64,000 nucleotides of DNA from Sulfurimonas xiamenensis (GTDB lineage Bacteria; Campylobacterota; Campylobacteria; Campylobacterales; Sulfurimonadaceae), in the NCBI RefSeq assembly GCF_009258045.1, contig NZ_CP041166.1:682001-746000 (forward strand), read 5' to 3'. The notes below the pieces were generated by a model that was not told the DNA's origin, ran no database searches, and saw nothing but the letters and a program-made list of their open reading frames with translations. Below are positions 1 to 40,106 of this stretch, piece by piece (position 1 is the stretch's first letter; each line of letters begins with the position of its first letter). A program made the translations under genes and the position numbers.

Positions 1-309
1 ATCTTCTTTATTACATACAACAAAATCAATGTGCTTGGCGGATATTCGATTAAATGCCTTTTGCCAGTTACTACGAGACATGCCTTTTCTTGGGGCAATT
101 ACATCCGCTAACCGAACCTTCCCGAATATTTCCCATTCTCCGCCCACCGCTTGTTTCAAAACCCCATAGAATGATCGTTCTGCGGGCGTAAATAGTGCAT
201 CAATTTTTTCGTATGGAAGTTTGCCTTTTCCTGCATGTTCTTTGCCTTTCAGGAATAGTGCAATTACAACGATGATGAAAAGTACAACTACAATATAAAC
301 AAGGTCCAT
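1..309 (-). CDS. DUF2726 domain protein, 3' part outside window (integron cassette)
   Basis: The minus-strand frame is open from ATG at 309 to the window edge, giving 103 codons, so the C-terminus and the attC of this cassette are missing. Residues 1-20 form one hydrophobic segment starting MDLVYIVVVLFIIVV, probably a membrane anchor. After it comes the pattern LFTPAERSFYGVL, then VRLADVI, then HIDFVVCNK. That order is typical of DUF2726, a small cytoplasmic domain with nuclease-like features and no proven function. The start lies just 5' of attC1 on the minus strand, as expected for the first codon of a cassette gene. A weak AAGGATATC ribosome-binding site precedes it. The family call is from memory of the motif pattern. 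Confidence 0.75.
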   Translation of the reverse strand, partial: MDLVYIVVVLFIIVVIALFLKGKEHAGKGKLPYEKIDALFTPAERSFYGVLKQAVGGEWEIFGKVRLADVIAPRKGMSRSNWQKAFNRISAKHIDFVVCNKED

Positions 310-328
310 GTGATATCCTTATTGAGCA

Positions 329-392
329 TAACGTTTAAAATGAGCCAATAAATTGCCCGCAGGGTAATTTATTGGCTCCACTGATTTGTTAG
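329..392 (-). other. attC site 1 (integron recombination site)
   Basis: This imperfect palindrome starts TAACGTTT and ends TTTGTTAG on the + strand. Its inner arms are GAGCCAATAAATT and AATTTATTGGCTC around a GC-rich centre CCCGCAGGG. Read on the minus strand, the right core box is GTTATGC, so cleavage would be G^TT at about 331. It terminates the PIN-domain cassette. The arms are nearly the same as in attC6. Confidence 0.92.
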
Positions 393-394
393 GT

Positions 395-1465
395 TTAAAC
401 ATAATAGTCTGGTTCTTCTTCAATATCAACTTCAATTCCAGACAATATACTTACTATAGTTAACGAATCTATTTCAATATCTTTTAAAGTTAAACCTTCA
501 ATCTCATAGGTAAATACTATCTCAACAGTAAAAGTCTTATCTATATATTCAATTCTATCAGTTGTATCAAAAACATATAACTTTCCGTCTTCCTTGTCAT
601 AGATACTACTATTGATGTAATCTGGTCCTGAAGCATGAATTTCAAATTCAATATCTATGTCAAATATCGTAATACATTTATCATCTTCTATATTTATAAT
701 ATTTGGATTAATTACCCCAATATTAGTTATATGAAAATCATTGATTTCTGAATCTTCCCAAGATGAATTATTATACATTTCTGCATCTTTTAAAATAGAT
801 TCGATTTTTTCTTTAATCTCTGAATCATGCTCAGATATATACTTTTTTATCTTAATAGTGATATTTTCATCATGTTGATTATATAAATCTAGTACCTTTT
901 CTAGTGATTCAATTGAAATCATTTGAGTATCTGTTTTACAAAAATTATTCATATCAGGATCATCAGAAACAATATAAATTTTTTCATCATTAGTGAGATT
1001 GGTTTTTAACGATAATAAAGATATTGCATCTGGAAATTCTTTTTGTTTTTTTTCACTAAAAGGGGGCGATTGATTAAAATACAATTCTAATATATCTTCT
1101 GTATTAACATTACTTGAATCAACTATTGTAGTATTGCATTCTTCTAAAAAATTATCAAATAGAGTATTTGCTTGTTCATAAATATCATCATTATTAATTT
1201 GATCAAAGATTGAACAATTAAAATCTTGATTTATTGCCGTTAGTAGATGTCTTTTTCTTTTAAAATCTTTTATAATACTTAAAGCTTCTGTAGTAGAATC
1301 TTTGATTTTTTTATAAACTTCTTGTTGAACAACACTTGTAGTAAAGTTTGTTAATTTATCTTGTTTACATAAGTCCTTAAAACTTGATAAGGTCTGATAA
1401 TCAAAATTTAATCCTTTTTTGACATAGTATTGGGTGTCAATAAATATTTTTTTTGATTCTAACAT
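395..1465 (-). CDS. PIN-domain (DUF4935-like) protein, integron cassette
   Basis: This 356-residue protein has an N-terminal PIN-like ribonuclease fold, judged by three acidic clusters in the expected order: FIDTQ near residue 10, FPDAISLLSL near 145, and VSDDPDM near 170. PIN domains use such acids to bind metal and cleave RNA. The spacing and the FPDAI motif resemble DUF4935. Residues 200-356 are an unassigned, very acidic beta-rich region ending EEEPDYYV. No antitoxin gene lies beside it in the cassette. An AAGGATATATC ribosome-binding site precedes the ATG. The gene ends 3 bases before attC1. Function (a toxin or defence RNase) is inferred. Confidence 0.75.
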   Translation of the reverse strand: MLESKKIFIDTQYYVKKGLNFDYQTLSSFKDLCKQDKLTNFTTSVVQQEVYKKIKDSTTEALSIIKDFKRKRHLLTAINQDFNCSIFDQINNDDIYEQANTLFDNFLEECNTTIVDSSNVNTEDILELYFNQSPPFSEKKQKEFPDAISLLSLKTNLTNDEKIYIVSDDPDMNNFCKTDTQMISIESLEKVLDLYNQHDENITIKIKKYISEHDSEIKEKIESILKDAEMYNNSSWEDSEINDFHITNIGVINPNIINIEDDKCITIFDIDIEFEIHASGPDYINSSIYDKEDGKLYVFDTTDRIEYIDKTFTVEIVFTYEIEGLTLKDIEIDSLTIVSILSGIEVDIEEEPDYYV

Positions 1466-1506
1466 GATATATCCTTACTCTTTATATATATTACTTACTG
1501 TAAACC

Positions 1507-1570
1507 TAACGTTTAAGTTGAGAAATATTTGAGCCGCAGGGTCAAATATTTCTCTCCAATGATTTGTTAG
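1507..1570 (-). other. attC site 2
   Basis: The palindrome TAACGTTTAAG...TTTGTTAG has arms GAGAAATATTTGA and TCAAATATTTCTC around GCCGCAGGG. It is almost identical to attC8 and to the site at 6914-6978, although the genes they follow are unrelated. The reading frame of the cassette upstream (minus strand) stops inside it. Confidence 0.92.
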
Positions 1571-2249
1571 ATGATGTAAAACTTAGAGTAAAGAAATACA
1601 TATCAACCAATTTCATTATAGGATATTTTACTCCAACTTTTTCTTCAATACTTTTTTGAACTTTTAAAAAGTCATTTTTATTTTCTTGATAAAATTTAAC
1701 TACTTCTAAAAAGCTTTTTCCTGATAGTTTTGTATATGGTTGTATATTTTTTGTTTTTAATCCATCTTTAAAAAATCTATCATATGCAGGAATACAACCA
1801 AGTGTTCCAAGTAAAATTTTAGTTAATAAAGTGTCTGTAACATTAATACCCTTTTTAGGTTTTTCTGGAATATCTTTAATATTGTCTGGATACCAATTTT
1901 CTATAAATTCTGATAATTTAAAAATATCTTCAAAATTCTTATCTTCTGCATTAAAATAATTAAAATCAATATTTTGCAGATGTTTATACTTTAATATCTC
2001 TTCTACAACTTTATGATGAATCAGGTAATCTTGCCATAAAAGAAAACTTGAGCCTCTATACATACCCCAACTTGCAAGATAAAATGATAAATGTAAACAA
2101 GCTATCTCTTTATCAATTTTATCAATATCTTGGGAAAAATATAAAAAACAATGTTCCCATGATTTGTATCTATGATTTTTATCACTGATTAATTGTTGAA
2201 AAAAATTCATTATATTATTTTCGATATTGTGCATTTGTTCCCTTGTCAT
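1542..2249 (-). CDS. Hypothetical integron-cassette protein
   Basis: This soluble protein of 235 residues contains the segments CLHLSFYLASWGMYRGSSFL (about 51-70) and LLGTLGCIPAYDRFF. I recognise these as recurrent in a family often found in mobile or defence contexts, but no function is known to me. The last residues, SNKSLERNI, are read from attC2, because the stop lies inside that site. The ATG abuts attC3, so the gene fills its cassette completely and has no room for its own promoter. Expression therefore probably depends on upstream cassettes or the integron promoter. Confidence 0.8.
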   Translation of the reverse strand: MTREQMHNIENNIMNFFQQLISDKNHRYKSWEHCFLYFSQDIDKIDKEIACLHLSFYLASWGMYRGSSFLLWQDYLIHHKVVEEILKYKHLQNIDFNYFNAEDKNFEDIFKLSEFIENWYPDNIKDIPEKPKKGINVTDTLLTKILLGTLGCIPAYDRFFKDGLKTKNIQPYTKLSGKSFLEVVKFYQENKNDFLKVQKSIEEKVGVKYPIMKLVDMYFFTLSFTSSNKSLERNI

Positions 2250-2250
2250 C

Positions 2251-2317
2251 TAACGTTTAAGATGAGCAATCAAAAAGCCGCCTCGGGTTTTTGATTGGTC
2301 TCCACTGATTTGTTATA
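2251..2317 (-). other. attC site 3
   Basis: The palindrome TAACGTTTAAG...TTTGTTATAC has arms GAGCAATCAAAAAGCC and GGTTTTTGATTGGTCTC. It matches attC5 closely and ends the GIY-YIG cassette. Confidence 0.92.
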
Positions 2318-2319
2318 CA

Positions 2320-3216
2320 TTAGTCAAATAAGTCCATCAACTCTTGTGCTGATTGTAACTTGTCATAACTCGTATATCTTGGGCTTTGTAAAATACCTTG
2401 TTTTGCTCTACCGTATTTTATTGGTCCAATTGCTTTTGCTGAAGAAACAAAATTCAACTTATACTTTTCTCCATCCCCATACGGTTCAATTGATTCTACT
2501 TCCGCAAAATGTGTTACCGCAGAGATAGGTGCTGTTTGATATGCTGCAATATATTTAATATCCTTCAATTTTCCCCCACCTATGCGAATAGCATACCAAC
2601 AATTTTCTCCTATAAATACGTCTTTAAAGCCATCTTCTTGTGCTGGTACAATAATCGTGTCTAAAATATTTCTTTTTATGTCAGATGGTTGAGAAGATAC
2701 TTTTATTTTCTTTGCCTTCTCAAATACTTTCACTTCTACTAATGGTAATATGCTTAATATCTCGTTCAAAAATTCTTGAGTATCAGCTTTTTCAGATTCT
2801 GTTAAAATAGGCTCATTAGGTGTAGCGGAATTATCCAATCTACATCGTCCTATGTTTTGTGCTTTTTGGATTAAAGCCCATTCTAACCATGTTATATGGG
2901 CACGGTTCAGCCCACCATTACTTGAAACAAAAACCAGTGCTTTATCCCAAAACTCTTTATTTTTTTCGTGAGATTCGATGCGTTTCCTGACTCCATCGCC
3001 TTGACCAATATATAAAGTCGGAAGGTCGTCACCTTCTTGATACCCAAAAAGTATATAGATTCCTGCTTGTTCAAATTCATTTCGGTTTTTATGTTTTGCC
3101 CAACCTTCACGAGATATTTCTAGTCCAGTGCCTGTCCAGTTCATTTTATCAATAATTTTGAATGTGCTTGGATCGCCATCAGGGACGAATAATCGAATTG
3201 TGTAAGGTTTTGACAT
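2320..3216 (-). CDS. GIY-YIG nuclease family protein (integron cassette)
   Basis: A protein of 298 residues. Residues 52-80 carry the two halves of the GIY-YIG catalytic module, GIYILFGY and LYIGQGDGVRKRI, with a conserved Arg at 77 and a candidate metal-binding Glu in the LEWALIQKA helix near 112. The family cuts DNA through a single metal ion. Residues 195-298 form a basic beta-rich domain similar in layout to the DUF4357 domain often fused to stand-alone GIY-YIG proteins; that assignment is tentative. A good ribosome-binding site (AAAGGAAAAT) precedes the ATG. It is the sole gene of its cassette and sits next to the EcoRI-type cassette. Defence or repair roles are guesses. Confidence 0.8.
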   Translation of the reverse strand: MSKPYTIRLFVPDGDPSTFKIIDKMNWTGTGLEISREGWAKHKNRNEFEQAGIYILFGYQEGDDLPTLYIGQGDGVRKRIESHEKNKEFWDKALVFVSSNGGLNRAHITWLEWALIQKAQNIGRCRLDNSATPNEPILTESEKADTQEFLNEILSILPLVEVKVFEKAKKIKVSSQPSDIKRNILDTIIVPAQEDGFKDVFIGENCWYAIRIGGGKLKDIKYIAAYQTAPISAVTHFAEVESIEPYGDGEKYKLNFVSSAKAIGPIKYGRAKQGILQSPRYTSYDKLQSAQELMDLFD

Positions 3217-3235
3217 TATTTTCCTTTATGATGTA

Positions 3236-3366
3236 TAACGGTTAAACTGAATTACAAATGTAGCGTTTGAAAAAGTGAAGTTTGAATATTAGAAATATAT
3301 TTGTTTTCATAGTTAGTTGAATTACTTGTCATAGGTACATTTGTTGATTCCTGTGATTTGTTATAC
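3236..3366 (-). other. attC site 4, long divergent form (about 131 bp)
   Basis: It starts TAACGGTTAAACTGAATTAC and ends TTTGTTATAC. The outer arms pair through CAAATGTA/TACATTTG and AATTAC/GGAATC-type imperfect pairing, with a long AT-rich loop. It differs from the roughly 65-bp sites around it and ends the restriction-modification cassette. The methyltransferase frame runs through nearly all of it. Confidence 0.8.
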
Positions 3367-4361
3367 TCTTTGTCTTTAAATTTAGTTTGTACTCGTTTAT
3401 TTTTAATTAGAATCCTAAAATATGGACATTTCCCATTTATTGATAAATCCTTTTCATCATTCCCTTTTCTGAATTTGATTATTTCAAATTGTTCAGGATT
3501 GAATTTATGTAAAAATGTAATGGGCACACCCATAACCCCCTTGTAGTCTGATGGTATATTTTTAGTTTTATTAATATTAATTCCATCGTAATTGTCATAT
3601 TTTGGATATTCATTTTCATTACCGAAATATTTTTTTGTAAGTGCAATATCTTCGTGCCGTTTGAAAGTATCTAAGTTAGTTAACCACAGACAATTGTTTG
3701 GGGAAACTATTCTATTTCCAAAGCTATCAATACGAGCCTCTGTTCCATAAAGTTCATAGTGTTCTGGAACAATAAAACCAGAAATACCTCTGCCAAGATT
3801 TATTCCTAACCATGCTTTATTTTCTTTAATTAGTTTAAAAATTTCTTTATAGGTTATTGCATTAATATTGCCAATTATCAAAAACTTTTTATCGTATTTA
3901 ACTAATTGAGCTACATATTCTCTAAATAATGAAAATGGTGGATTAGTAACAACAATATCGGACTGCTTTAATAGTTCAACACTTTCTTTACTACGAAAAT
4001 CTCCATTTCCTTTGAAGTAAACTATGTCAGTTATACTTGGTTTGATTTTTTCTTCCTCTGTACCTGTGTATTCAAAGAAAAAACCATTTTTATCTTCTTT
4101 TGTATTGAATAAATCTTTTGCTTCTTCTTTATAGCAAGCTGCAATTAATTTTTTTATACCTAATTCTTTGAAGTTTGAGGCAAAATAATTAAAAAAGTTA
4201 CTACTTCGTGGATCATCACAATTGCAATAAACTACTTTATTTTCAAAATGACTTTTATAATGTTGTAATTCACTTTCTATATCCGAAAGTTGTGTGTAAA
4301 ACTCGTCACTTTTTGATTTTTTAGCTTTTTGTAATAATTCATTTGTTGCATTTCTTGCCAT
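3252..4361 (-). CDS. ecoRIM: EcoRI-type adenine-specific DNA methyltransferase (M.EcoRI homologue)
   Basis: This protein would transfer a methyl group from S-adenosylmethionine to adenine in GAATTC, shielding host DNA from the partner endonuclease encoded just upstream. Residues 1-326 follow plasmid M.EcoRI almost throughout: the start MARNATN, KKSKSDEFYTQ, VVYCNCDDPR, the catalytic IVVTNPPFSLF (NPPF at 140-143), GTEARIDS, SPNNCLWLTNLD and KFNPEQFE. M.EcoRI is 326 residues; this one is 369. The extra 37 residues (333-369) are encoded entirely by attC4, so the tail is a by-product of cassette structure and may or may not be tolerated. The gene follows the endonuclease stop by 2 bases, the same order as the plasmid system. 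Confidence 0.95.
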   Translation of the reverse strand: MARNATNELLQKAKKSKSDEFYTQLSDIESELQHYKSHFENKVVYCNCDDPRSSNFFNYFASNFKELGIKKLIAACYKEEAKDLFNTKEDKNGFFFEYTGTEEEKIKPSITDIVYFKGNGDFRSKESVELLKQSDIVVTNPPFSLFREYVAQLVKYDKKFLIIGNINAITYKEIFKLIKENKAWLGINLGRGISGFIVPEHYELYGTEARIDSFGNRIVSPNNCLWLTNLDTFKRHEDIALTKKYFGNENEYPKYDNYDGININKTKNIPSDYKGVMGVPITFLHKFNPEQFEIIKFRKGNDEKDLSINGKCPYFRILIKNKRVQTKFKDKEYNKSQESTNVPMTSNSTNYENKYISNIQTSLFQTLHL

Positions 4362-4363
4362 TT

Positions 4364-5206
4364 TTAACCTATTTTGTTGTTAGTTATCTGATTAAATATT
4401 TCACTGCCTAACACTTGGAGAGAGGTTTTAGAAGTTTCAAGCATAATATCAAACATTTTTTTAATATCCCATTTTGCACCATTCCCTTGTGTGTATATTG
4501 AAGTTGCTTGAAGCATAATTGTTTTATCTTTATGTTTGACAAATTTATTTTTACACAAATTGGTATTAATTGGCATTCCATAATTTGCAGAAGTTAATCG
4601 ATCTAATCTATTTAACATTCCTGAGTTGTATTCAAGCGTTACAACCCTTCCATCTGGTCTTTCAATGGCAATAGTTTCTGTTAAAAAATTTGAGCCTTCA
4701 AGAAATAAAACATAAGGAAAATGAGATTCAGATAACATCAAATTAGCGATTTCAGATATGTTTTTATGTGACCTTTCTATTGCATTACCAGCAGCCATCA
4801 AGTCTTGATTATTATTCTTACCTACTAGTGTACCATTTTTGATATTTTCAATGTCTTTTCCTTGATGTTTAGCTTCTGATACTAAAATAATTCTCCAATT
4901 ATCGTTATCGTCTTTTACTTCTATTATTCCACCATCAGGTATAATGCTTGAATTTGCTACAAAAAGGGTCTGCCCTAATTCTGGGTCAACTTTCTTTAAT
5001 GCTTCATTTATTTCTTCTTTTTTTATACTCGTTTTGTAATTAAAAGATAATTGAGGATATTCTTTTTTAAGTTGTTCAATAACAAGGTTTGATATTTTTC
5101 CAACAGTCATGTCATGAGATTTTGCTTCATCTCCAAATATACCAATTACACCTTTAGACTCTTTATGTTGATTTGTTAGTCTGTTTGATTGAACTTTTTT
5201 AGCCAT
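4364..5206 (-). CDS. ecoRIR: EcoRI-type type II restriction endonuclease (R.EcoRI homologue)
   Basis: This protein is predicted to cut unmethylated GAATTC as a homodimer. It has 280 residues against 277 in plasmid EcoRI and is collinear with it. The catalytic set is intact at the same numbers as in EcoRI: Asp91 in IIPDGG, then Glu111 and Lys113 in SEAKHQGKD. The DNA-reading segment MAAGNAIERSHKN (137-149) keeps Asn141, Glu144 and Arg145, so specificity is probably unchanged. An AAAGGAATAAT ribosome-binding site precedes the ATG. No controller (C) gene is seen, as in the EcoRI system. It shares a cassette with the methyltransferase, downstream of a cassette-internal promoter candidate. The identification rests on recall of the EcoRI sequence. 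Confidence 0.96.
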   Translation of the reverse strand: MAKKVQSNRLTNQHKESKGVIGIFGDEAKSHDMTVGKISNLVIEQLKKEYPQLSFNYKTSIKKEEINEALKKVDPELGQTLFVANSSIIPDGGIIEVKDDNDNWRIILVSEAKHQGKDIENIKNGTLVGKNNNQDLMAAGNAIERSHKNISEIANLMLSESHFPYVLFLEGSNFLTETIAIERPDGRVVTLEYNSGMLNRLDRLTSANYGMPINTNLCKNKFVKHKDKTIMLQATSIYTQGNGAKWDIKKMFDIMLETSKTSLQVLGSEIFNQITNNKIG

Positions 5207-5242
5207 ATTATTCCTTTTCTAGAATTTAATTTTAACACAAAT

Positions 5243-5248
5243 ATTATA
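5243..5248 (-). promoter_or_regulatory. Candidate -10 box of a cassette-internal promoter for the EcoRI-type pair
   Basis: Read on the minus strand, CTTTTATAATATTTGTG contains a perfect TATAAT about 37 bases before the endonuclease ATG. No good -35 hexamer sits 17 bases upstream, which is common for the housekeeping promoters of Campylobacterota. The 85 bases between attC5 and the start codon are longer than in any neighbouring cassette, leaving room for a promoter. Confidence 0.45.
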
Positions 5249-5291
5249 AAAGGCTTGTTTTAAAAGTTTACCTATCCTCTATATTGATGTA

Positions 5292-5359
5292 TAACGTTTG
5301 AAATGAGCAATCAAAAAGCCGCCCGCGGGTTTTTGATTGGTCTCCTTTTGGGTTGTTAG
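5292..5359 (-). other. attC site 5
   Basis: The palindrome TAACGTTTGAAA...GGGTTGTTAG has arms GAGCAATCAAAAAGCC and GTTTTTGATTGGTCTCC around GCCCGCGG. It is close to attC3 and ends the ankyrin cassette. Confidence 0.92.
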
Positions 5360-5417
5360 ACAAGTAATCGATCACAGTAATTAAATGTGTTTTGTCCCCT
5401 GCCATCGATAGATTAAT

Positions 5418-6074
5418 CTATTCATGTTCTTCTGCCTGAGAACTTTTATGTCTGAATACAGTCCTTTTCAAAGTAATTAGGCTGAATATACCTATCAAAA
5501 TCAATGCTGGAATAATAAGCAAGAAATCTAGTCTTATTTTGGGCCCGCAATCAGCCCGCTTCATAGGCGTATTTGCCAGATCCCCTTGATCAGCTCCATT
5601 ATCAAGCAGTATCTGCACAATATCAGGATAGCATCCAGCAGCAAATTTAAGTGCAGACATCCCACCAAAATTGCGTGCGTTTACATCGGCATGATTTAAT
5701 AGTAAGATTTTGACTGCATCGGTTTTTCCGTTTCTTGCGGCCCTCATCAAAGCTGTATATCCTTCATCTGACTTCACATTCACGTCTGCTCCATTCTCTA
5801 TGAGAATTTCCATAATTTCCGTATGGCCATAACGCGCAGCAACCATGAGAGGCGTCACTTCGATAGCACCAGCTTTTTTCATATTGACGTCAGCCCCATT
5901 GGCAATAAGAGTTTTGACCTTTTCTAGCTGGTTCTGACGTACAGCAGACATCAAGGGCATTTCTCCCGGAACGGAATAGTCTGACGCACCAAATAAAGCA
6001 CTGATAAATAACAATCCAAATAAAATGGATGTCAATGACGAGAATTTGCGGTTCTGTTTATGTTCGAGTTTCAT
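5418..6074 (-). CDS. Exported ankyrin-repeat protein with C-terminal membrane anchor (integron cassette)
   Basis: A protein of 218 residues from the chosen ATG at 6074, which has an AGGATTAATT ribosome-binding site; an in-frame ATG at 6116 would add 14 residues but lacks one. Residues 1-30 form a signal peptide or anchor (basic start, then SSLTSILFGLLFISALFG). Three to four ankyrin units follow, recognisable as GEMPLMSAVRQNQLEKVKTL, TPLMVAARYGHTEIMEIL, TALMRAARNGKTDAVKIL and SALKFAAGCYPDIVQIL. Near the C-terminus a hydrophobic segment (FLLIIPALILIGIFSLITL) is followed by a basic tail. The repeats would thus face the periplasm as a protein-binding surface. The partner is unknown. Base composition is less AT-rich than in neighbouring cassettes. 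Confidence 0.82.
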   Translation of the reverse strand: MKLEHKQNRKFSSLTSILFGLLFISALFGASDYSVPGEMPLMSAVRQNQLEKVKTLIANGADVNMKKAGAIEVTPLMVAARYGHTEIMEILIENGADVNVKSDEGYTALMRAARNGKTDAVKILLLNHADVNARNFGGMSALKFAAGCYPDIVQILLDNGADQGDLANTPMKRADCGPKIRLDFLLIIPALILIGIFSLITLKRTVFRHKSSQAEEHE

Positions 6075-6122
6075 AATTAATCCTAAGGGAGATTGTTGCA
6101 ACGCATTGTCAATCATAAAGTC

Positions 6123-6187
6123 TAACGTTTGAAGTGAGCTAATAAATTTCCCGCAGGGTAATTTATTAGCTCCCCTGACTTGTTAGC
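6123..6187 (-). other. attC site 6
   Basis: The palindrome TAACGTTTGAAG...CTTGTTAGC has arms GAGCTAATAAATTTCC and GGTAATTTATTAGCTCC around CGCAG. It is in the same subfamily as attC1 and ends the HNH cassette. Confidence 0.92.
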
Positions 6188-6193
6188 TTCTTG

Positions 6194-6742
6194 CTAGTCA
6201 AGTATATTTTTTCTTAGCTTTTCAGCTAATACATCAGCTTTTTCCATTAGATTAAAAATTTCTTTTTTTACTTCTTGAAAGTCATTATATTCATTAGGAC
6301 TTTTATTTTTTAAAAGTTCTAAATTTATTTCTTTTGCAAATTTTCTTTGATATTGTGATAGTAATTCAATTAATTCGGTTTTATCAAAATATATTTTGTC
6401 ATATTCGTTAATAAACTTATCAAATTCTTTACTGCCTTTTTTTGAGTTACATTTTTTACAGCATGGAACTAAATTACCAACTTGATGACCATAGCCTCTT
6501 AATTCTCCATTTTTGACTAGACCCACAAGATGATCCCATGTTTCAGCTTCATCGTTACAAAATACACATTTTAAATCTTCATTAGGATTTTGACCTAAAA
6601 ATTTCAATGCTTCATTCATTTTTTCTTCATTGAAATCATCACTTGGCGCAATTGCAGATGCAAATGCGTGATTGATGGTTGTTCGTCTTTTATTATAGAC
6701 TGAATAAGTTTTTAAATGTCGTTTAATATCTTCTTTTTTCAC
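6194..6742 (-). CDS. HNH endonuclease family protein (integron cassette)
   Basis: From a GTG at 6742 with an AGGATT ribosome-binding site the product is 182 residues. A longer frame from ATG 6811 exists, but its first 23 residues would come from the GC-rich attC next door, so I reject it. The HNH core is CVFC (Cys59, Cys62), WDHL (His71), then GNLVPCCKKCNSKKG (Asn90, Cys95, Cys98), combining a zinc-binding Cys4 frame with the metal-dependent nuclease histidine. Flanking parts are helical and highly charged. HNH proteins of this size occur in restriction, phage and defence settings. The target here is unknown. Confidence 0.82.
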   Translation of the reverse strand: MKKEDIKRHLKTYSVYNKRRTTINHAFASAIAPSDDFNEEKMNEALKFLGQNPNEDLKCVFCNDEAETWDHLVGLVKNGELRGYGHQVGNLVPCCKKCNSKKGSKEFDKFINEYDKIYFDKTELIELLSQYQRKFAKEINLELLKNKSPNEYNDFQEVKKEIFNLMEKADVLAEKLRKNILD

Positions 6743-6759
6743 AATAATCCTATGTAAGC

Positions 6760-6843
6760 TAACGGTGCCGCGGGTCATCGACCTCATCACGGGGATTCCG
6801 GAGGAATACACGGGGTGAGGCTCGATGCAGCCGCTTGTTATCT
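6760..6843 (-). other. GC-rich attC of a gene-less cassette
   Basis: TAACGGTGCCGCGGG...CAGCCGCTTGTTATC contains the arms ATCGACCTCATCAC and GGGGTGAGGCTCGAT with extrahelical bases, which is attC geometry, but it is far richer in GC than every other site here. A longer pairing out to the GTTATCC at 6889-6895 (CCGCGGG with CCCGCGC) is an alternative end. The 70 bases between this site and the next one hold no plausible gene but do contain two GC-rich hairpins. It probably came from a different, GC-rich integron. Confidence 0.75.
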
Positions 6844-6913
6844 GGTGCGGAGCAGCAGATGACTAGCGGGTGTTCAGCCCGCGCCCCCGTTATCCGGTCG
6901 CGTAGCGAGCGGA

Positions 6914-6978
6914 TAACGTTTGAGTTGAGAAATATTTGAGCCGTAGGGTCAAATATTTCTCTCCAATGATTTGTTATA
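6914..6978 (-). other. attC site 7
   Basis: The palindrome TAACGTTTGAGTTGAG...TTTGTTATA has arms GAGAAATATTTGA and TCAAATATTTCTC around GCCGTAGGG. It differs from attC2 and attC8 by about one base in the core and ends the zinc-ribbon cassette. Confidence 0.92.
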
Positions 6979-6982
6979 TCTT

Positions 6983-7303: not shown

Positions 7304-7328
7304 GTTGAATACTCCTATTTTTTTGATA

Positions 7329-7392
7329 TAACGTTTGAGTTGAGAAATATTTGAGCCGCAGGGTCAAATATTTCTCTCCAAGGTATTGTTAG
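7329..7392 (-). other. attC site 8
   Basis: The palindrome TAACGTTTGAGTTGAG...TATTGTTAGC shares its arms with attC2 and attC7. The stop codon of the membrane-protein cassette gene is formed by its left core box. Confidence 0.92.
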
Positions 7393-7847
7393 CACTTAAA
7401 ACCACAATACATTACTGTGCAACAAAAAGCCAGTTGAATAATACCAACTCCTATTAATGTACTAATAAGAGATCCTATGCCAACAACTATACTTGAATTA
7501 TACTGAAGTTTTTTAGCTGTCATACCAAATATAAATGCCCCAATAAGAGCACCTGGAATTGAAAATAGATAAACTATCCAGGCCATAGCAGCGGATGGTT
7601 CTGAAGTTGATGACATTAATATCGCATAACTGATTAAAAATGTTGTCATTGTTAACGAACATCCAGTTATAACACTAGCTCGCATTTTAGCAAGAAACAA
7701 TAAGCCGATAATGACTCCTTGTGGAAGCCAATAGTATAGAAAATTAGGTAGAAAGAAATGGTTTTTTGGTGCAATTACTATTGCTGTGATAATTCCTAGA
7801 AGAACGATAATTCTAGCAACTGAATGTTCATTGATTTTAAAAGTCAA
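7389..7847 (-). CDS. Hypothetical four-helix membrane protein (integron cassette)
   Basis: Nearly the whole 152-residue protein is hydrophobic, with four to five membrane helices: about residues 10-27, 40-55, 58-77, 85-105 and 118-140. The C-terminus CCTVMYCGFKC is rich in cysteine and ends on attC8 bases. I do not recognise the family. Holin-like, transporter-like or abortive-infection membrane proteins are possible, but nothing in the sequence decides it. Confidence 0.75.
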   Translation of the reverse strand: MTFKINEHSVARIIVLLGIITAIVIAPKNHFFLPNFLYYWLPQGVIIGLLFLAKMRASVITGCSLTMTTFLISYAILMSSTSEPSAAMAWIVYLFSIPGALIGAFIFGMTAKKLQYNSSIVVGIGSLISTLIGVGIIQLAFCCTVMYCGFKC

Positions 7848-7868
7848 AATACCTTTCCTTTCACATGC

Positions 7869-7932
7869 TAACGTTTGACTCTAGCCAATAAATGACCACT
7901 AGGGCATTTATTGGTTACGAGGTTTTGTTATA
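7869..7932 (-). other. attC site 9
   Basis: The palindrome TAACGTTTGACTCTAG...GGTTTTGTTATA has inner arms GCCAATAAATG and CATTTATTGGTT around ACCACTAGGG. It is the most diverged of the short AT-rich sites. It ends the DUF2806-like cassette, whose last codons are inside it. Confidence 0.88.
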
Positions 7933-8826
7933 TACTTTGTTGTGTAATGGTTCTGATAGTATTAAATTCGCTTTGAAAAGTTTTTCTACTATGTAATGAT
8001 AAAAACCATCAATATATTCGTCTTTATCATCAGTTTTTTTGTAAATATTTGGATGATTCACTTGTGCTAAATCTAACCCAATTTTTGTTAATGTTACTGT
8101 TCCTGTTTTTATTTCTTTTTTAGGAACATTTTTAAAGTCTAAATTTAAAATTCTTCCATAGTAACCAATACTAAATGTATCAGTATTGAATATTTTCACA
8201 AATCCACTTGTTGGATTAAAGCTAATAAGACCAATTTCATCTAAATGCATTAAATTACTAAAGGTCATATTATTATTCTCATAAATTTGATTGTCATTAT
8301 AATCTATAATTAATGGTTGGTATCCACCAATAAACCAACAGTATTTTAAAAAATTGTCAAATAATAGAGCATCACTTTTATCCAATGTTGAGATAAATTC
8401 TATAGTTCTTTTTGAAAATGTTCCAGGAGTATTTGATTCTCCAGCTAAAATTTGTGCCCATAATGTTTGCATTTCATTATCTGATATTAATTTACATTTA
8501 TCAAAAAAGTTACTTAACCAGTCATCTTCAATATCTTCTGGTGTTGCATTTTCTTCTAGTGAAGAAAATGATTTTTCAGTTATACTCTCTATATTCTCTT
8601 GTTTTTTTATTTCTTCAGTTACTAATCTATTTAAGGCTCTCTTTTGAATGTCTTCAATTTCTAAATCCATTAAAGCTTTTGTTTTTGATGCCTCAGCTTC
8701 TGCAATTGCTTTTTGTTTTATTCTTCTTGGTTCATAAACTATACCAATTGCATTAGAAATTTTTTCAACTAATACAGTTGCTGGCTTTGATAGTTTTCCA
8801 ACATCAACTAATGACACATTTGGCAT
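7915..8826 (-). CDS. DUF2806-like protein (integron cassette)
   Basis: A protein of 303 residues. After an N-terminal stretch naming an EPRRIKQKAIAEAEASKTKA helix (about 33-52) comes a charged helical linker. The core DDWLSNFFDKCKLISDNEMQTLWAQILAGE (about 100-129) is followed by PGTFSKRTIEFISTLDKSDA. This signature matches my memory of the DUF2806/TIGR03899 group. Its function is unknown, but its layout (helix, then a conserved W-x-I-L-A-G-E motif, then a winged-helix-like tail) parallels the Abi-alpha (DUF4393) abortive-infection family. The C-terminal residues NKTS come from attC9. An AAAGGAAATTG ribosome-binding site precedes the ATG. Confidence 0.7.
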   Translation of the reverse strand: MPNVSLVDVGKLSKPATVLVEKISNAIGIVYEPRRIKQKAIAEAEASKTKALMDLEIEDIQKRALNRLVTEEIKKQENIESITEKSFSSLEENATPEDIEDDWLSNFFDKCKLISDNEMQTLWAQILAGESNTPGTFSKRTIEFISTLDKSDALLFDNFLKYCWFIGGYQPLIIDYNDNQIYENNNMTFSNLMHLDEIGLISFNPTSGFVKIFNTDTFSIGYYGRILNLDFKNVPKKEIKTGTVTLTKIGLDLAQVNHPNIYKKTDDKDEYIDGFYHYIVEKLFKANLILSEPLHNKVYNKTS

Positions 8827-8846
8827 TCAATTTCCTTTTTTGTATA

Positions 8847-8913
8847 TAACGTTTTAGTTGAGAAATAGTTTTGCCCGCCAGGGTAAACTATTTCTCTCCA
8901 ATGTTTTGTTATA
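8847..8913 (-). other. attC site 10
   Basis: The palindrome TAACGTTTTAGTTGAG...GTTTTGTTATA has arms GAGAAATAGTTTTGCC and GGTAAACTATTTCTC around CGCCA. It ends the cassette nearest the integrase; that gene's TAA stop overlaps the site. Confidence 0.9.
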
Positions 8914-9718
8914 TGTGTTTTTTTGATGTTAAAACTCCATCTAAAGTAATTGTTATATCTTCTATATCTTCAAAATTAGTATCTTGTAAAATAAATGATA
9001 ATTCTTTATCTCCGAAGCCATAACCCCATAAGTATAATTCAGCACCTAAAGCACTTGGACTGATAACGATTCCACCTTCTTTTGCATCTGCATAGTTTTT
9101 TTGAATATGTTCTATGGGACCATAGTAAAATGTTTCTATCAAACTATCCTTATTTAAACCAAAAAATGTATTGTTTACTATTGACGTCAATTGTTCCTTT
9201 TCTCTTTCATTAAACTGCATTGCGTTTAAATATGTATTCCAAGGAATAAATATTTCCATTTTATGACGATCTTCTCGGTTGAAAAGATATTTACTATCTT
9301 TAAATAATTTTCTAATTATTGAGTAAACAAGATAATGGGATCTGATTTGATAGACAGACATGTTGTCTAATATTTTTCCAATTCTTGCTCCACGGTCATC
9401 CCTACCAGATTCAGTCCTTGAAGATGCCAATACACCACCGAAGTACTCTACTGCAACTGTATCATCACAATATGATCCTTCATCAATAATTGTTTTAAGG
9501 ACTTTTGGTGGAACTTGTCCATTTTCATTAATTTTGTCACCTAATTTTTTTTCAGCATTACCAAAAATTTTCCCAACATTATCTGTCCGCTTTTGTACAA
9601 AATCTTTTAGACTTACCCCAAGGTAATCAGCAGTAGGCCCGAGTAGCTTATTTAATCCATCTTTACCTAAATAAGCAGCTACTGCACTTACTCCAATAGT
9701 TGTAACTGGTTCTGGCAT
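8909..9718 (-). CDS. Hypothetical protein of the integrase-proximal cassette
   Basis: A soluble protein of 269 residues. The N-terminus MPEPVTTIGVSAVAAYLGKDGLNKLLGP could be a membrane-binding amphipathic helix. Near residues 85-120 the segment TVAVEYFGGVLASSRTESGRDDRGARI is followed by a helix DNMSVYQIRSHYLVYSI. The arrangement recalls DUF4393/Abi-alpha and the DUF2806-like neighbour (a conserved L-A-S/G motif followed by a charged loop and helix), but I cannot assign a family. As the first cassette after attI it should be the best expressed. Function unknown. Confidence 0.72.
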   Translation of the reverse strand: MPEPVTTIGVSAVAAYLGKDGLNKLLGPTADYLGVSLKDFVQKRTDNVGKIFGNAEKKLGDKINENGQVPPKVLKTIIDEGSYCDDTVAVEYFGGVLASSRTESGRDDRGARIGKILDNMSVYQIRSHYLVYSIIRKLFKDSKYLFNREDRHKMEIFIPWNTYLNAMQFNEREKEQLTSIVNNTFFGLNKDSLIETFYYGPIEHIQKNYADAKEGGIVISPSALGAELYLWGYGFGDKELSFILQDTNFEDIEDITITLDGVLTSKKHI

Positions 9719-9995
9719 GTTTATCCTTTCATCATATAACTATTTATTAGAGGACATTCTATATAAATTAACCTTAAATAACTTGATTAGTGTGACATCA
9801 AAAATGTCCTCCTATTTTAAAAAAATATGACAAACTGCAATAAAATAGTTTAGTTTTTACAAAAAAGGTTAGAATTATCAAAATTTGTATTGTCCATTTA
9901 GCCGGAAATTAGCCATTAGCAAGACAAATTGTCCTACTAATAGTGCATAAAGTGTTTAAAAGGACAGAATGTCCTTTCTAATTAAGGAGCTTATT
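9719..9995. promoter_or_regulatory. attI and divergent promoter region between cassettes and integrase
   Basis: This 277-bp region holds no gene. The attI/cassette junction is the box ATATAAC at 9734-9740 (GTTATAT read toward the cassettes). The hexamer AGGACA or its complement occurs at 9751, 9805, 9930, 9961 and 9970, with a partial copy near 9891; these may be integrase or regulator contact sites. A minus-strand TATAGAAT (9756-9763) is a candidate -10 of the cassette promoter Pc. The region is very AT-rich and no LexA box was recognised. Confidence 0.65.
9959..9977. promoter_or_regulatory. Perfect inverted repeat upstream of intI (operator candidate)
   Basis: AAAGGACA and TGTCCTTT form 8-bp arms with a 3-base spacer, ending 18 bases before the integrase ATG. 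The half site is the same hexamer repeated five more times in this intergenic region, so it may be bound by the protein that regulates intI or by IntI itself. Confidence 0.55.
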
Positions 9996-10964
9996 ATGCA
10001 AATAAAAAAGAAATTACTTGATATAGTTCGCGAGAAAATCAGAGTAAAACATTACAGTATAAAAACAGAACAAAGTTATGTTGGATGGGTTAAGCAATAT
10101 ATCTTTTTTCATAACAAAAAACATCCTATAGATATGGGAAAAAGAGAAATTGAAGAGTTTTTAACTTACTTAGCTGTTGAGCGAAAAGTCTCTCCTGCAA
10201 CGCAAAATCAAGCATTTTCTGCACTACTGTTTTTATATACTCAAGTTTTAGGCATAGATTTAAAAGACACAAATATTCAAGCTTTAAGAGCACAAGAGAG
10301 AAAACATATACCAGTTGTACTCACAAAAGATGAAGTACAAAAAGTTTTGATAAATCTTACAGGAATTTATCAGTTGATTGTCTATCTCATGTATGGATGT
10401 GGTCTTAGGATGAGCGAGGCTTTAAGTCTTAGAATTAAAGATGTGGATTTTGGATTTGACAAAATTTATATTTGGGACAGTAAAAGTTTGACAGATAGAA
10501 CATTACCTTTGCCACAAGCTATAAAACAAAGACTTTTAGCACAAGTTGATTATGTTGCAAAAATTCATAAAAAAGATTTAGAAGATGGATTTGGTTCTGT
10601 ATATATGCCTTATGCTCTTGAGAAAAAGTATCCAAAAGCACAATTGGAAACAAAATGGCAATTTTTGTTTCCAATGACAAATGTTTCTAGAGATCCAAGA
10701 AGTGAGATAGTAAGGAGACATCATGTACATGCTAAAACATTAAGTAGAAATATTAAAATTGCTTCTCAAAAAGCAAATGTACATAAACGAGTAACCTCTC
10801 ACATATTTAGACATAGTTATGCCACTCATTTGTTACAAGCCGGGATAGACTTGCGTTCAATTCAAGAATTATTGGGACACAAAAGTGTTGAAACTACAAT
10901 GATATACACGCATGTAGTTTCTGAAATGAACAAGAGTAAAGTTATAAGTCCTTTGGATTTCTAA
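9996..10964 (+). CDS. intI: Integron integrase IntI (tyrosine recombinase)
   Basis: This site-specific recombinase inserts and excises cassettes at attI and attC. The start at 9996 is chosen for its AAGGAGC ribosome-binding site; an upstream in-frame start at 9969 lies inside the operator-like repeat. The product is 322 residues, normal for IntI. Catalytic residues are Arg138 ([10 protein letters not shown]), His269 and Arg272 ([10 protein letters not shown]), His295 (LLGHKS) and nucleophile Tyr304 (TMIYTHV). The IntI-specific insertion that grips the flipped-out bases of folded attC is clear: [16 protein letters not shown] (198-213) followed by [11 protein letters not shown]. It reads away from the cassettes, the usual layout. 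It appears intact, so the array is probably active. Confidence 0.97.
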
Positions 10965-10976
10965 TTCTGCACTCTA

Positions 10977-12857
10977 TTACAATGGCCACACAATAAGCAG
11001 CATTGGAATACTTATAACAACAATGAGAATCTCCAGCGGCAGTCCAAGCCTCCAGTAGTCACCAAACCTAAAGCCGCCGGGGCCCAGTATCAGCGTATTG
11101 TTCTGGTGGCCGACAGGGGTGAGAAATGCACATGAGGCGCCGATCGCCACTGCCATTAAAAAAGAGTCGGCATTGACACCTAGCGCGCTCGCAGTACCGA
11201 TGGAGATCGGGCACATTACCGCTGCGGTGGCGGCGTTGTTCATCATATCGGAGAGGAACATAGTGATAACAAGAATTAGTGTCAGACCGATCACGGCGTT
11301 GCCGTAGGCGACTTTTTCGATGATTAAGCGTGCGATCAAATCAGCGGTACCAGTAGATTCCATTGCTCCAGCCACTGGAATAAGTGTTGAGAGCAACACA
11401 ATTACAGGCCAGTCTATAGACTCGTACACATCGCGCAGCGGTACTGTCCGAAGTGCCATAGACGCCAGTACGCCCGTGGCAAACGATATTGATGCCGGCA
11501 ACAGTCCAAGAGCAGCGATTGCAACAGAGAGTGCCATGATGATGCCGGCTTTCCATATCTTGCTTCTGTCAGGGATGCGCAGATCGCGTTGTGCCAGAGG
11601 TACGCAGCTGTAGTCGGCGGCAAATTCCGAGATCGATTCAGGCGAGCCCTGCATTAGCAGCAGATCGCCGGCTTCGAGGCGGGCAGTGCGCAGGCGTTTG
11701 ATGGAGAGCTGACCACGACGCGAGAGGGCCAGTAGGTTAAGATTGTAGCGTGTTCGTAACTGGATGTTGCTAGCTGAGCGTCCTGTAAGGTGGGAACCAG
11801 GCAGAACGGCAAGTTCTTTCAAGACGATTTCGTCAGAGGTCGTAACATCTTCTTTTTCCTCTTTAGTCTCTTCCTTGTCCTTATCTTTGTCACTGTTTTT
11901 TGTTTCGTTTTTTTCTGTTTCGTCTTTTTCTGTTTCGTCTTTTTCTGTTTCGTCTTTTTCAATGGACTGCACTGCTTCTTCGAGCTTAAGTCCCAATGTA
12001 GAGAGCGCATCGGCAAGGGTTTCAGCCTCTGCCTCTAGTATGAGGATATCTTCGGCAAGTATCTTGCGCCACTGGTTTGGTACACTAAGGCGGACATCGT
12101 TACGAACCATGCCGATGACTTGTGTGTCGTTATCATCAAGAGCCGTCTCAATTTCACGCAGGGTCATACCTACTGCTTTACTCTCTTTGGGTACCCTTGC
12201 TTCGGTGATATATGCTCCTGATTCGAATCCTTCGACTCCGATTTGCTTGCGTATCGGAATCAGGCGTTGACCCAGCAAGAGTATGAAGGCTAATCCGGCA
12301 AAGGCAACGACCAGTCCAACATGTGTGAAGTCGAACATAGAGAAGCTCTCGGAGCCGGTCTCGGCGCGAAAACCGGCGACAATCATATTTGGCGGCGTGC
12401 CGATCATCGTTGTCATGCCGCCAAGGATGGTACCAAAAGCCAGCGGCATCAGTATCTGGCCGGGAGTCAAGTTCAGGCGTTTCGCCATCTGTAGAGCTAC
12501 TGGCATTAACAATGCCATCGCGCCGATGTTGTTCATAAAGCCTGAGAGTACCGCTCCAAGTCCGATTAGCGCGGTCATGCTCAGTGTTACTCCCGCTTGC
12601 GAGGGCAACACGGTGCGAGTCAGTGCATCCACCACACCTGAAGTCTGCAAACCACGGCTGAGCACCAGTACACAGGCAACAGTTATAACAGCCGGATGAC
12701 CAAATCCTGCAAATGCTTCGAGCGGCGGCACTAGTCCAGCCAGAACGCATGCCAACAGCGCAGCTGCACCTACCATGTCGTGGCGCCAACGACCCCACAA
12801 AAACATTGCCATCGTAATAATCAAAATTGCCAGTATTAGTAGTTGTTCAGTCGTCAT
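10977..12857 (-). CDS. SLC13/DASS-type permease with RCK_C (TrkA-C) domains
   Basis: This inner-membrane anion or dicarboxylate/sulfate-type transporter has 626 residues from ATG 12857; a 13-residue longer frame would start inside an inverted repeat. Residues 1-200 contain one block of membrane helices with the hallmark FMNNIGAMALLMPV and GTILGGMTTMIGTPPNMIV. The last 200 contain the mirror block with DMMNNAATAAVMCPI. Between them lie two TrkA-C-like regulatory domains (about 210-290 and 350-420) split by a hyper-acidic repeat of EKDET units. Its GC content is plainly higher than that of all neighbours and its codon use differs, indicating acquisition from a GC-richer donor. The substrate cannot be told from sequence. 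Confidence 0.88.
   Translation of the reverse strand: MTTEQLLILAILIITMAMFLWGRWRHDMVGAAALLACVLAGLVPPLEAFAGFGHPAVITVACVLVLSRGLQTSGVVDALTRTVLPSQAGVTLSMTALIGLGAVLSGFMNNIGAMALLMPVALQMAKRLNLTPGQILMPLAFGTILGGMTTMIGTPPNMIVAGFRAETGSESFSMFDFTHVGLVVAFAGLAFILLLGQRLIPIRKQIGVEGFESGAYITEARVPKESKAVGMTLREIETALDDNDTQVIGMVRNDVRLSVPNQWRKILAEDILILEAEAETLADALSTLGLKLEEAVQSIEKDETEKDETEKDETEKNETKNSDKDKDKEETKEEKEDVTTSDEIVLKELAVLPGSHLTGRSASNIQLRTRYNLNLLALSRRGQLSIKRLRTARLEAGDLLLMQGSPESISEFAADYSCVPLAQRDLRIPDRSKIWKAGIIMALSVAIAALGLLPASISFATGVLASMALRTVPLRDVYESIDWPVIVLLSTLIPVAGAMESTGTADLIARLIIEKVAYGNAVIGLTLILVITMFLSDMMNNAATAAVMCPISIGTASALGVNADSFLMAVAIGASCAFLTPVGHQNNTLILGPGGFRFGDYWRLGLPLEILIVVISIPMLLIVWPL
11901..11960. repeat. 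Four tandem 15-bp units inside the permease gene
   Basis: Units at 11901, 11916, 11931 and 11946 read TGTTTCGTCTTTTTC, the first with one C-to-T change. On the coding strand they encode EKDET, EKDET, EKDET and EKNET. Being a multiple of three, copy-number change would alter only the length of the acidic linker between the two RCK_C-like domains. Confidence 0.95.
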
Positions 12858-12877
12858 ATATTTAGTCCGTGCCCAAT

Positions 12878-12904
12878 TTGTCTGCTTGTTATGCAAGCAG
12901 ACAA
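12878..12904. repeat. Perfect 11-bp inverted repeat upstream of the permease
   Basis: TTGTCTGCTTG and CAAGCAGACAA flank a 5-base loop TTATG, about 21 bases before the permease ATG. It has no T-run on either side, so it looks more like an operator or an RNA hairpin in the 5' leader than a terminator. Confidence 0.7.
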
Positions 12905-37435: not shown

Positions 37436-38995
37436 ATGGCAAAAGAGAAGAAACAAAAAAGTATGGAAGAGACTCTTTGGGAGAGTGCAAACAAACTCAG
37501 AGGCTCTGTCGAGTCAAGCGAATACAAACATATAGTTTTAGGACTTATTTTTTTAAAGTTTGTAAGTGATACTTACGAAGAACGCAGAGAACAGCTCATA
37601 GCTGAAGGCAAAGAGGCATTTGTCGATATGGTAGAGTTTTACACCATGGAAAATGTCTTTTACCTGCCCGAAGAATCACGCTGGAGCTACATAAAACGAA
37701 ATGCTAAACAAGATGACATAGCCCTTAAAATAGACACCGCCCTCTCTCACATAGAAAAAACCAACAAATCGCTCAAAGGGGCATTGCCCGACAACTACTT
37801 CTCAAGGCTTGGGCTTGATGCAAGTAAGCTCTCCGCACTTATAGACACCATCAACAACATAAACACCATAGCAGACAAAGGTCACGATATAGTCGGGCGT
37901 GTATATGAGTACTTTTTGAGTAAGTTTGCCATAGCGGAGGGCAAAGGCAAAGGAGAGTTTTACACTCCAAAGTCCATAGTAAACCTTATAGCAAATATGA
38001 TAGAACCCTACAAAGGCAAGATATACGACCCTGCATGTGGAAGCGGCGGTATGTTTGTACAGTCTGTTAAGTTTATAGATGCTCACAACGGAAACAAAAA
38101 AGACATTTCAGTCTATGGTCAAGAGTACACGGCAACTACTTACAAACTAGCAAAGATGAACTTAGCTATCAGAGGAATCTCTGCCAACCTCGGCGATGTA
38201 CCTGCTGACACATTTTTTAAAGACCAACACAAAGACCTAAAAGCTGACTTCATCATGGCGAACCCGCCATTTAACCAAAAAGATTGGAGAGGTACAAACG
38301 AACTGCTCGATGACCCACGATGGGCGGGATACGACACTCCACCAACATCCAACGCCAACTACGCTTGGATACTAAACATGGTATCAAAACTCTCTGTAAA
38401 CGGTGTAGCTGGCTTCATCCTTGCAAACGGAGCACTTAGTGGTGGCGGTGAAGAGTACAAAATACGAAAGAAACTTATAGAAAATGATTTGGTAGAGGCT
38501 ATAGTGATTTTACCTAGAAATCTTTTCTATACCACAGACATAAGCGTAACACTTTGGATACTCAATGCGAATAAAAAGCAAAGAGAATTTGAGCAAAATG
38601 GTAAAACTAAGGTTCATCGTAACAGAATAGATGAGATACTCTTTATGGACTTAAGACAAAAGGGAGTGCCGTTTGAGAAAAAGTTTACACAGTTTGACGA
38701 AGAGACCATCGAAGAAGTAACGACAACTTATCATACATGGCAAAGTGACAAAGAAGCTTACCACGATATAGCAGAATACTGTAAAAGTGCATCAAAAGAT
38801 GAAGTGATAGCAAAAGACTACTCACTAGTTCCTAGCAAATATATAGAGTTTGTAAACAGAGATGAAAACATAGACTTTGATACAAAAATGGCTACACTGC
38901 AAAGTGAATTTGCAGAGCTACTAAAAGAGGAAGAAAAGTCAAAAAAAGAGCTGCTAGAAGTATTTAAAGAGTTGGGTTATGAGATCAAACTATAA
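37436..38995 (+). CDS. hsdM: Type I restriction enzyme modification subunit HsdM
   Basis: This is the adenine N6-methyltransferase subunit of the type I complex. The product has 519 residues. An N-terminal helical domain (LWESANKLRGSVESSEYKHIVLGLIFLKF) is followed by the cofactor motif DPACGSGGMF (198-207) and the catalytic NPPF (276-279). The C-terminal coiled coil should hold HsdS. The stop overlaps hsdS by 17 bases. The start is at 37436 although no strong ribosome-binding site is seen. The gene has a moderate GC content and heads a six-gene operon. Confidence 0.97.
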   Translation: MAKEKKQKSMEETLWESANKLRGSVESSEYKHIVLGLIFLKFVSDTYEERREQLIAEGKEAFVDMVEFYTMENVFYLPEESRWSYIKRNAKQDDIALKIDTALSHIEKTNKSLKGALPDNYFSRLGLDASKLSALIDTINNINTIADKGHDIVGRVYEYFLSKFAIAEGKGKGEFYTPKSIVNLIANMIEPYKGKIYDPACGSGGMFVQSVKFIDAHNGNKKDISVYGQEYTATTYKLAKMNLAIRGISANLGDVPADTFFKDQHKDLKADFIMANPPFNQKDWRGTNELLDDPRWAGYDTPPTSNANYAWILNMVSKLSVNGVAGFILANGALSGGGEEYKIRKKLIENDLVEAIVILPRNLFYTTDISVTLWILNANKKQREFEQNGKTKVHRNRIDEILFMDLRQKGVPFEKKFTQFDEETIEEVTTTYHTWQSDKEAYHDIAEYCKSASKDEVIAKDYSLVPSKYIEFVNRDENIDFDTKMATLQSEFAELLKEEEKSKKELLEVFKELGYEIKL

Positions 38996-40106
38996 AAGGC
39001 TAGGACAGTTTATACAGCAAGTAAGTGTAAAAAACATTAATCTAGAAGTTGATAATCTTCTGGGTGTAAGTATCACTAAAAAATTTATTCCTTCTATTGC
39101 CAATACTATCGGCACAGATATGTCAACATATAAAATAGTGAAAAAAAATCAATTCACATACGGCTCGATAACTTCACGAAATGGAGATAAAATATCTGTA
39201 GCACTACTTGAAGATGATGAGGCGATAGTTTCTACATCGTACACAGTATTTGAAGTTACAAAGCAAGATGAACTGCTCCCTGAATACCTCATGATGTGGT
39301 TTAGAAGAGAAGAGTTTGATAGATATGCCAGATATATGTCACATGGAAGTACAAGAGAAGCTTTTGGCTGGGATGAGATGTGTGAAGTAGAACTACCCAT
39401 ACCATCCATAGAAAAACAGCGAGAAATAGTAAAAGAGTACCACACCATTGTAGATAGAATCAAACTAAATGAACAACTGAACCAAAAACTAGAAGAGACC
39501 GCACAAAGCATCTACAAAGAGTGGTTTGTAAATTTTGATTCTACTGAAGCGATTAAACTTGATGAATATATTAATTTTAATCCAAAACATACAATAAAAA
39601 AAGAACAATTAACAAGTTATGTTGAAATGGCTGATGTACAAGAAGATGCAATGAGCTTAAAAAATATAATAAAAAGACCTTTTACAAGTGGTTCAAAATT
39701 TAAAAACCGAGACACCTTATTAGCAAGAATAACGCCATGTTTAGAGAATGGAAAAACTGCTTTTGTAACTGGGCTTGAAGAAAATGAAATAGCCTTTGGT
39801 TCAACAGAATTTATTGTAATGAGAGCAAAAAAAGATATTAGTCCGTATTGGGTTTATTGTTTAGCAAGAGAAGAAAACTTTAAATCATATGCAATAAGCA
39901 GTATGATTGGATCATCAGGTAGACAAAGAGTACACAGTGATTATTTAAAAGAGTATGAGATGTCTATAGATATTAATAAAATGGATGTATTCCATAAAAT
40001 AGCAAAACCAATATTTGAGAATATTTATTTTAAAGCAAAAGAAAATAAACATCTTGAAATTTTGAAAGAAACTTTACTTTCAAAAATGGCAACTATTAAG
40101 GGGTAA
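38979..40106 (+). CDS. hsdS: Type I restriction enzyme specificity subunit HsdS
   Basis: This subunit sets the bipartite DNA target for the complex. The 375 residues hold two target-recognition domains (about 5-155 and 195-340), each followed by a helical spacer. The first spacer is LPIPSIEKQREIVKEYHTIVDRIKLNEQLNQKLEETAQSIYKEWFVNF and the second is shorter (IFENIYFKAKENKHLEILKETLLSKMA). Base composition changes sharply near 39540, at the start of the second recognition domain, which is much more AT-rich and matches the SIR2 gene that follows, a sign of domain exchange. The spacer to the next ATG is 4 bases. Confidence 0.95.
   Translation: MRSNYKRLGQFIQQVSVKNINLEVDNLLGVSITKKFIPSIANTIGTDMSTYKIVKKNQFTYGSITSRNGDKISVALLEDDEAIVSTSYTVFEVTKQDELLPEYLMMWFRREEFDRYARYMSHGSTREAFGWDEMCEVELPIPSIEKQREIVKEYHTIVDRIKLNEQLNQKLEETAQSIYKEWFVNFDSTEAIKLDEYINFNPKHTIKKEQLTSYVEMADVQEDAMSLKNIIKRPFTSGSKFKNRDTLLARITPCLENGKTAFVTGLEENEIAFGSTEFIVMRAKKDISPYWVYCLAREENFKSYAISSMIGSSGRQRVHSDYLKEYEMSIDINKMDVFHKIAKPIFENIYFKAKENKHLEILKETLLSKMATIKG

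Follow-up and report, generated by a model that had tools for sequence, protein, structure and literature searches.

How does a gene pair resembling EcoRI, the best-known restriction enzyme, and its methyltransferase come to lie among the recombination sites of an integron in Sulfurimonas xiamenensis? The stretch analysed here (64,000 nucleotides, hereafter the window) spans bases 682001-746000 of a chromosome assembled completely as a single contig of 1.916 Mb. We ask what the pair is, whether it is a gene cassette, how it reached this integron, and how often systems of the same family are carried in this way.

The EcoRI-type protein pair

The two genes lie in tandem, the endonuclease gene (R) ahead of the methyltransferase gene (M), with 2 bp between them and both frames open:

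4364-5206, minus strand: EcoRI-type restriction endonuclease R, 280 aa (PF02963, PDB EcoRI match, identity to plasmid EcoRI)
3252-4361, minus strand: EcoRI-type adenine methyltransferase M, 369 aa, its C-terminal ~43 residues forming a tail (PF13651, NPPF intact)

In profile searches R scores 493.8 bits against PF02963, with 257 of 257 positions covered, and M scores 438.6 bits against PF13651. R residues 3-276 match EcoRI crystal structures in the PDB (E 7e-137), and alignment to EcoRI from an E. coli plasmid gives 207 identical residues out of 277 (75%). M shares 241 of 326 residues (74%) with the plasmid EcoRI methyltransferase across the full 326-residue core, and its NPPF motif is intact. 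The scores and the structural match bear out the claim of a preliminary description, made from the letters of the window, that the pair is complete and of EcoRI type; both identities are far above the 40% to EcoRI proteins below which that description was to be given up. Residues checked against EcoRI show that R conserves D91, E111 and K113, the loop MAAGNAIER at 137-145, R200 and R203, and that it differs from EcoRI at positions D59 and K89. The catalytic residues and recognition segment earlier called intact are indeed all present, and R200 and R203 can be added to them.

It had also been stated that both proteins follow their plasmid counterparts over nearly their whole length. This is true of R across residues 3-276 and of the M core, but M has 43 further C-terminal residues that are absent from plasmid EcoRI. 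Such tails are common among M relatives; this one could impair M. The closest R proteins (up to 91% identity, among the 80 loci listed of 174 EcoRI-like loci in a genome-collection scan) occur in Bacteroidota, Microcystis and others.

The cassette and its own attC

Sites were detected by a loose pattern scan combined with covariance models; a strict pattern missed most of them. Model R2, which represents the classical attC, was trained on ten attCs of the window and eight from other loci, with the site at 3233-3366 left out. Cassette borders were set by the known G^TTRRRY rule, and the R' boxes, GTTATAC, are at 5295-5289 and 3239-3233 on the minus strand.

3239-5294, minus strand: EcoRI-type R-M gene cassette (2,056 bp), bounded by the R' cut points of the preceding attC and of its own attC
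5289-5361, minus strand: attC of the preceding (ankyrin) cassette, the 5' border of the EcoRI cassette (R2 51.6 bits, E 5e-10; in the training set)
3233-3366, minus strand: attC of the EcoRI cassette, 134 bp, 27% GC, overlapping the M 3' end (R2 E 4.3e-4)
3252-3366, minus strand: final ~37 codons of M with its stop, lying within the attC (from the M and attC coordinates)

R2 recovers the untrained site at 3233-3366 with an E-value of 4.3e-4, along with all other attCs of the array. This attC is weak by its R2 E-value and by its hairpin z-score (-2.05); the hairpin is moderately better than shuffles, 7 of 200 being as good. No Rfam family matched attC. The R-M pair lies between two attC sites as first proposed, the downstream one found by a model trained without it. 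The cassette originally placed at 3236-5291 stands as such, with its borders moved to 3239-5294 and with a 3' attC that overlaps the last ~37 codons of M. Because the conserved M core ends ~7 codons ahead of the attC, the tail that the attC encodes is probably tolerated read-through. As judged from its sequence, the locus very probably represents an EcoRI-type type II restriction-modification system, with predicted GAATTC specificity, packaged as a single integron gene cassette.

With the closest R proteins occurring in Bacteroidota, where attC-like sites of similar length (~131 bp, model R1) are found, a Bacteroidota origin of the EcoRI attC was considered and rejected: R1 has no match at 3233-3366 with filters off and E-values up to 10, and the alignment score to the 131-bp class is no better than that of shuffles. 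The site is modestly similar to long AT-rich attCs of other integrons in the same genus (z 2.6, 1 of 300 shuffles; model R3 E 0.037). Two same-genus integrons (L126 and L127) show two attC length classes, ~69 and ~134 bp.

A resident integron and a later arrival

The remaining features of the array, from the integrase to the distal end, are as follows:

9969-10964, plus strand: integron integrase IntI (331 aa), oriented divergently to the array (TIGR02249 407 bits, curated cut-off 265)
8844-8914, minus strand: attC nearest the integrase (R2 68.6 bits)
7866-7933, minus strand: attC (R2 57.7 bits)
7326-7394, minus strand: attC (R2 65.3 bits)
6911-6979, minus strand: attC (R2 73.1 bits)
6757-6843, minus strand: attC, GC-rich (60%) and atypical (R2 27.1 bits, E 4e-4)
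6194-6811, minus strand: cassette gene, HNH-like (PF14279 below cut-off; weak PADLOC PDC-M01B matches)
6120-6188, minus strand: attC (R2 63.9 bits)
5418-6116, minus strand: neighbouring cassette gene, ankyrin repeats (Ank_2 158 bits)
2320-3216, minus strand: cassette gene adjoining EcoRI, 298 aa, PADLOC candidate defence family PDC-S14 (E 1e-56)
2248-2318, minus strand: attC (R2 60.3 bits)
1504-1572, minus strand: attC (R2 71.9 bits)
395-1465, minus strand: cassette gene, PIN domain (PF16289 91.9 bits)
326-394, minus strand: attC at the distal array end (R2 68.9 bits)

The array thus holds 11 attCs, all on the minus strand, between 326 and 8914, and the 60 kb to its left contain no R2 match. 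Counted from the integrase, the EcoRI cassette is the eighth attC-bounded unit. The atypical attC at 6757-6843 is separated from the next attC by just 67 bp, with no ORF. Elsewhere in the window, at 37436-48353, type I R-M-like genes were seen by eye, with a SIR2-like ORF at 40111-42807.

The host IleS and IntI are 64% and 70% identical to those of a metagenome-assembled genome (MAG) named Sulfurovum. For IleS, identity is 42-47% (50% in one segment) when gammaproteobacterial, desulfobacterial and cyanobacterial genomes are compared, and 30% for Flavobacterium covae. With these values, which are taken to mark a Sulfurovum-like member of the Campylobacterota, and with IntI over its cut-off, the earlier placement of the pair in a chromosomal integron of a Campylobacterota-like genome is upheld.

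Across the genus, EcoRI occurs in 1 of 135 genomes and a close IntI homologue in 57 of 135. One of these genomes (G033) has IntI 111 bp from an ileS that is 95% identical to the window ileS, and it has an attC array and no EcoRI; in the window, IntI and ileS are separated by a transporter gene (10977-12896). The disparity in counts, together with an IntI-ileS pairing that lacks EcoRI, identifies the integron as the resident and the EcoRI cassette as the later arrival, acquired by an integron already in place. The tree of R sequences does not resolve the donor of the window cassette.

EcoRI cassettes in other lineages

Models R1 (attC-like sites of ~131 bp, mostly from Bacteroidota) and R2 were applied to the 80 listed EcoRI-like loci. 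In 25 of these 80, an attC or attC-like site lies either at the end of M or ahead of R. In 21 it lies at the M 3' end, where it begins 52-102 nt past the FRI codon that M conserves, and at 18 of these 21 loci M stops inside the site. As some of these loci contributed training sites to both models, the E-values obtained on them are not independent evidence. Independent evidence is provided by sites outside the training sets, such as L041 6895-7026, L045 9849-9980, L048 8868-8999, L049 2213-2344 and L008 7185-7254, by compensatory changes in 14 of 15 hairpin pairs, and by the orientation of the R1 matches, 55 of 56 of which share the strand of R and M. The hosts named are Bacteroidota, Ignavibacteriota, Cyanobacteria, Desulfobacterota, Campylobacterota, Gammaproteobacteria and one Chlamydiota bin (mostly MAGs, for which host names are uncertain), and the R tree requires at least 17 changes in cassette carriage.

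Individual loci place the pair beside other integron components. In L060 an intact IntI lies directly upstream of the EcoRI pair. L062 (positions 1-3726; a Bacteroidetes MAG, isolate HKST-UBA117) reads, in order, IntI fragment, EcoRI R-M, attC, aadA2, attC and a lnu(F)-like gene; here, as in the window, an attC directly follows M. The aadA2-lnu(F) part of this resistance-type integron is >99% identical to clinical plasmids, its integrase is only distantly like IntI1, and the host of the MAG contig is uncertain. At the Achromatium locus, a group II intron (RF02001, L010:6746-6920) lies shortly 3' of M, and may interrupt an attC.

An EcoRI cassette from a MAG named Sulfurovum sp. (L053) invites comparison with that of the window. 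Its R is 82% identical, its M ends in an attC, and more attC-like sites follow downstream on the same strand. However, the L053 attC, at 68 bp, belongs to a different length class and its R falls on a different branch of the tree; this cassette represents an acquisition separate from that of the window.

The preliminary description saw in the window one route by which such a system could move between distant hosts, a reading strengthened by the EcoRI cassettes of other phyla. Their recurrence suggests that EcoRI-type systems are regularly carried by integrons.

A possible integron-like array in Bacteroidota

Very few integrons of Bacteroidetes were reported with IntegronFinder 2.0 (PMC9024848). 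In Flavobacterium covae, EcoRI is one unit in an array of attC-like hairpin sites of ~131 bp (L091/L039). The array starts ~1 kb from a 393-residue tyrosine recombinase encoded on the opposite strand (L091:3681-4862), and 18 of the 25 R1 sites in the genome are within 25 kb, on one side, of one of two copies of the recombinase, a limit chosen after the array was seen. The recombinase scores 184.5 bits against the IntI cut-off of 265, and the IntI-specific insert is absent from its alignment. In other Bacteroidota, adjacency of site and recombinase is seen only in part. The F. covae array and its recombinase possibly constitute an integron-like system of Bacteroidota.

Relation to plasmid EcoRI and to known R-M cassettes

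EcoRI of small plasmids in E. coli and Klebsiella (AP024697, CP067830) resembles the window system in the order R then M, in 74-78% identity and in the same checked catalytic and recognition residues. It differs in being plasmid-borne and in having an M of 325-326 aa that ends without an attC, whereas the window M has 369 aa and ends inside one. On the R tree, enteric plasmid EcoRI groups with gammaproteobacterial cassettes, on a branch that holds L060, L062 and L069 (SH-aLRT 94, in a quick tree with an open fork). The tree fits descent of plasmid EcoRI from a cassette without proving it or setting a direction of change, and no attC relic was found 3' of M among the enteric plasmid M genes examined. 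A wider scheme can be offered tentatively, as a conjecture we find rather doubtful: EcoRI-type systems would be largely cassette-borne, moving between phyla by way of integrons and the integron-like system of Bacteroidota, and enteric plasmid EcoRI would be an escaped gammaproteobacterial cassette that lost its attC.

That R-M systems can be integron cassettes is already known, from Vaisvila et al. 2001 as cited in PMC12707154, and R-M cassettes are noted in PMC9892861 and PMC12444791. As described there, they likewise comprise complete R-M systems in chromosomal integron cassettes; the texts consulted do not name the EcoRI family, and the window differs in its Campylobacterota host. In the literature covered, which largely leaves out subscription papers, R-M cassettes are treated in general and no report of an EcoRI cassette was found. 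That EcoRI recurs as a cassette seems not to have been reported before, though its novelty is not certain.

Proposed mechanism and alternative explanations

In the mechanism we propose, IntI would recombine the folded single-stranded attC, and R and M would move jointly as one circle able to enter integrons of other bacteria. M would methylate and R would cut GAATTC, and the host would thereby be defended against DNA of phages and plasmids. Loss of the cassette would leave 182 chromosomal sites unprotected, possibly selecting for its retention.

Could the pair instead be a genomic-island or plasmid insertion that happens to lie between attCs? Small plasmids of enteric and other bacteria do carry EcoRI, which lends the idea some plausibility, but plasmid, transposase and island genes are absent from 3239-5294. 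The 3' attC, moreover, is distinct from its neighbours' ~69-bp sites and is fused to the M end, the same arrangement is repeated in other phyla, and the enteric plasmid M genes examined do not have a 3' attC. Chance insertion appears highly improbable. Another question is whether a genuine cassette may be inactive, being old, unexpressed and deep in the array. Its position as eighth unit from the integrase would fit this, as would the general finding that most cassettes in large chromosomal integrons are unexpressed (PMC11023631). A scan of the cassette found no clear promoter of its own, with fewer promoter-like sites than in shuffles; however, scans for sigma-70 promoters say little in this lineage, and the known EcoRI has a separate M promoter (PMC12707154). 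The host genome carries 182 GAATTC sites, or 95 per Mb, compared with a median of 101 in other genomes of the genus. Avoidance of GAATTC was considered as a sign of long residence and set aside, there being no depletion and a density ordinary for the genus: nothing indicates long selection by the enzyme against GAATTC in this host, which would also fit a silent cassette. Against silence stand two open frames and intact key residues, which are not by themselves proof of expression. We regard inactivity as a real possibility, if one that we would on the whole doubt.

The role of an active pair may also be conceived differently, as mainly that of an addiction module stabilising the array by post-segregational killing, much as toxin-antitoxin cassettes do in the superintegrons of Vibrio. 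The preliminary description suggested that such a pair could stabilise an array in this way if excised, an idea that is plausible. Type II R-M systems of some plasmids do kill in this way (PMC12707154), superintegrons are stabilised by toxin-antitoxin cassettes (work cited in PMC11023631), and loss of the pair would expose 182 unmodified sites. But the array, with its 11 attCs, is short, and carriage is explained just as well by defence alone; addiction as the main role seems unlikely. A mobile cassette with a predicted defensive function is the reading we prefer.

Implications

If integrons are a regular carrier of EcoRI-type systems, they would provide a concrete and testable mechanism for the patchy distribution of EcoRI across phyla, and chromosomal integrons would gain a further example as stores of defence genes. 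A contig that carries both EcoRI and aadA2-lnu(F) suggests that defence and resistance cassettes can share arrays. The reading of M into attC, which is common, provides an easy marker by which cassette-borne R-M systems can be found.
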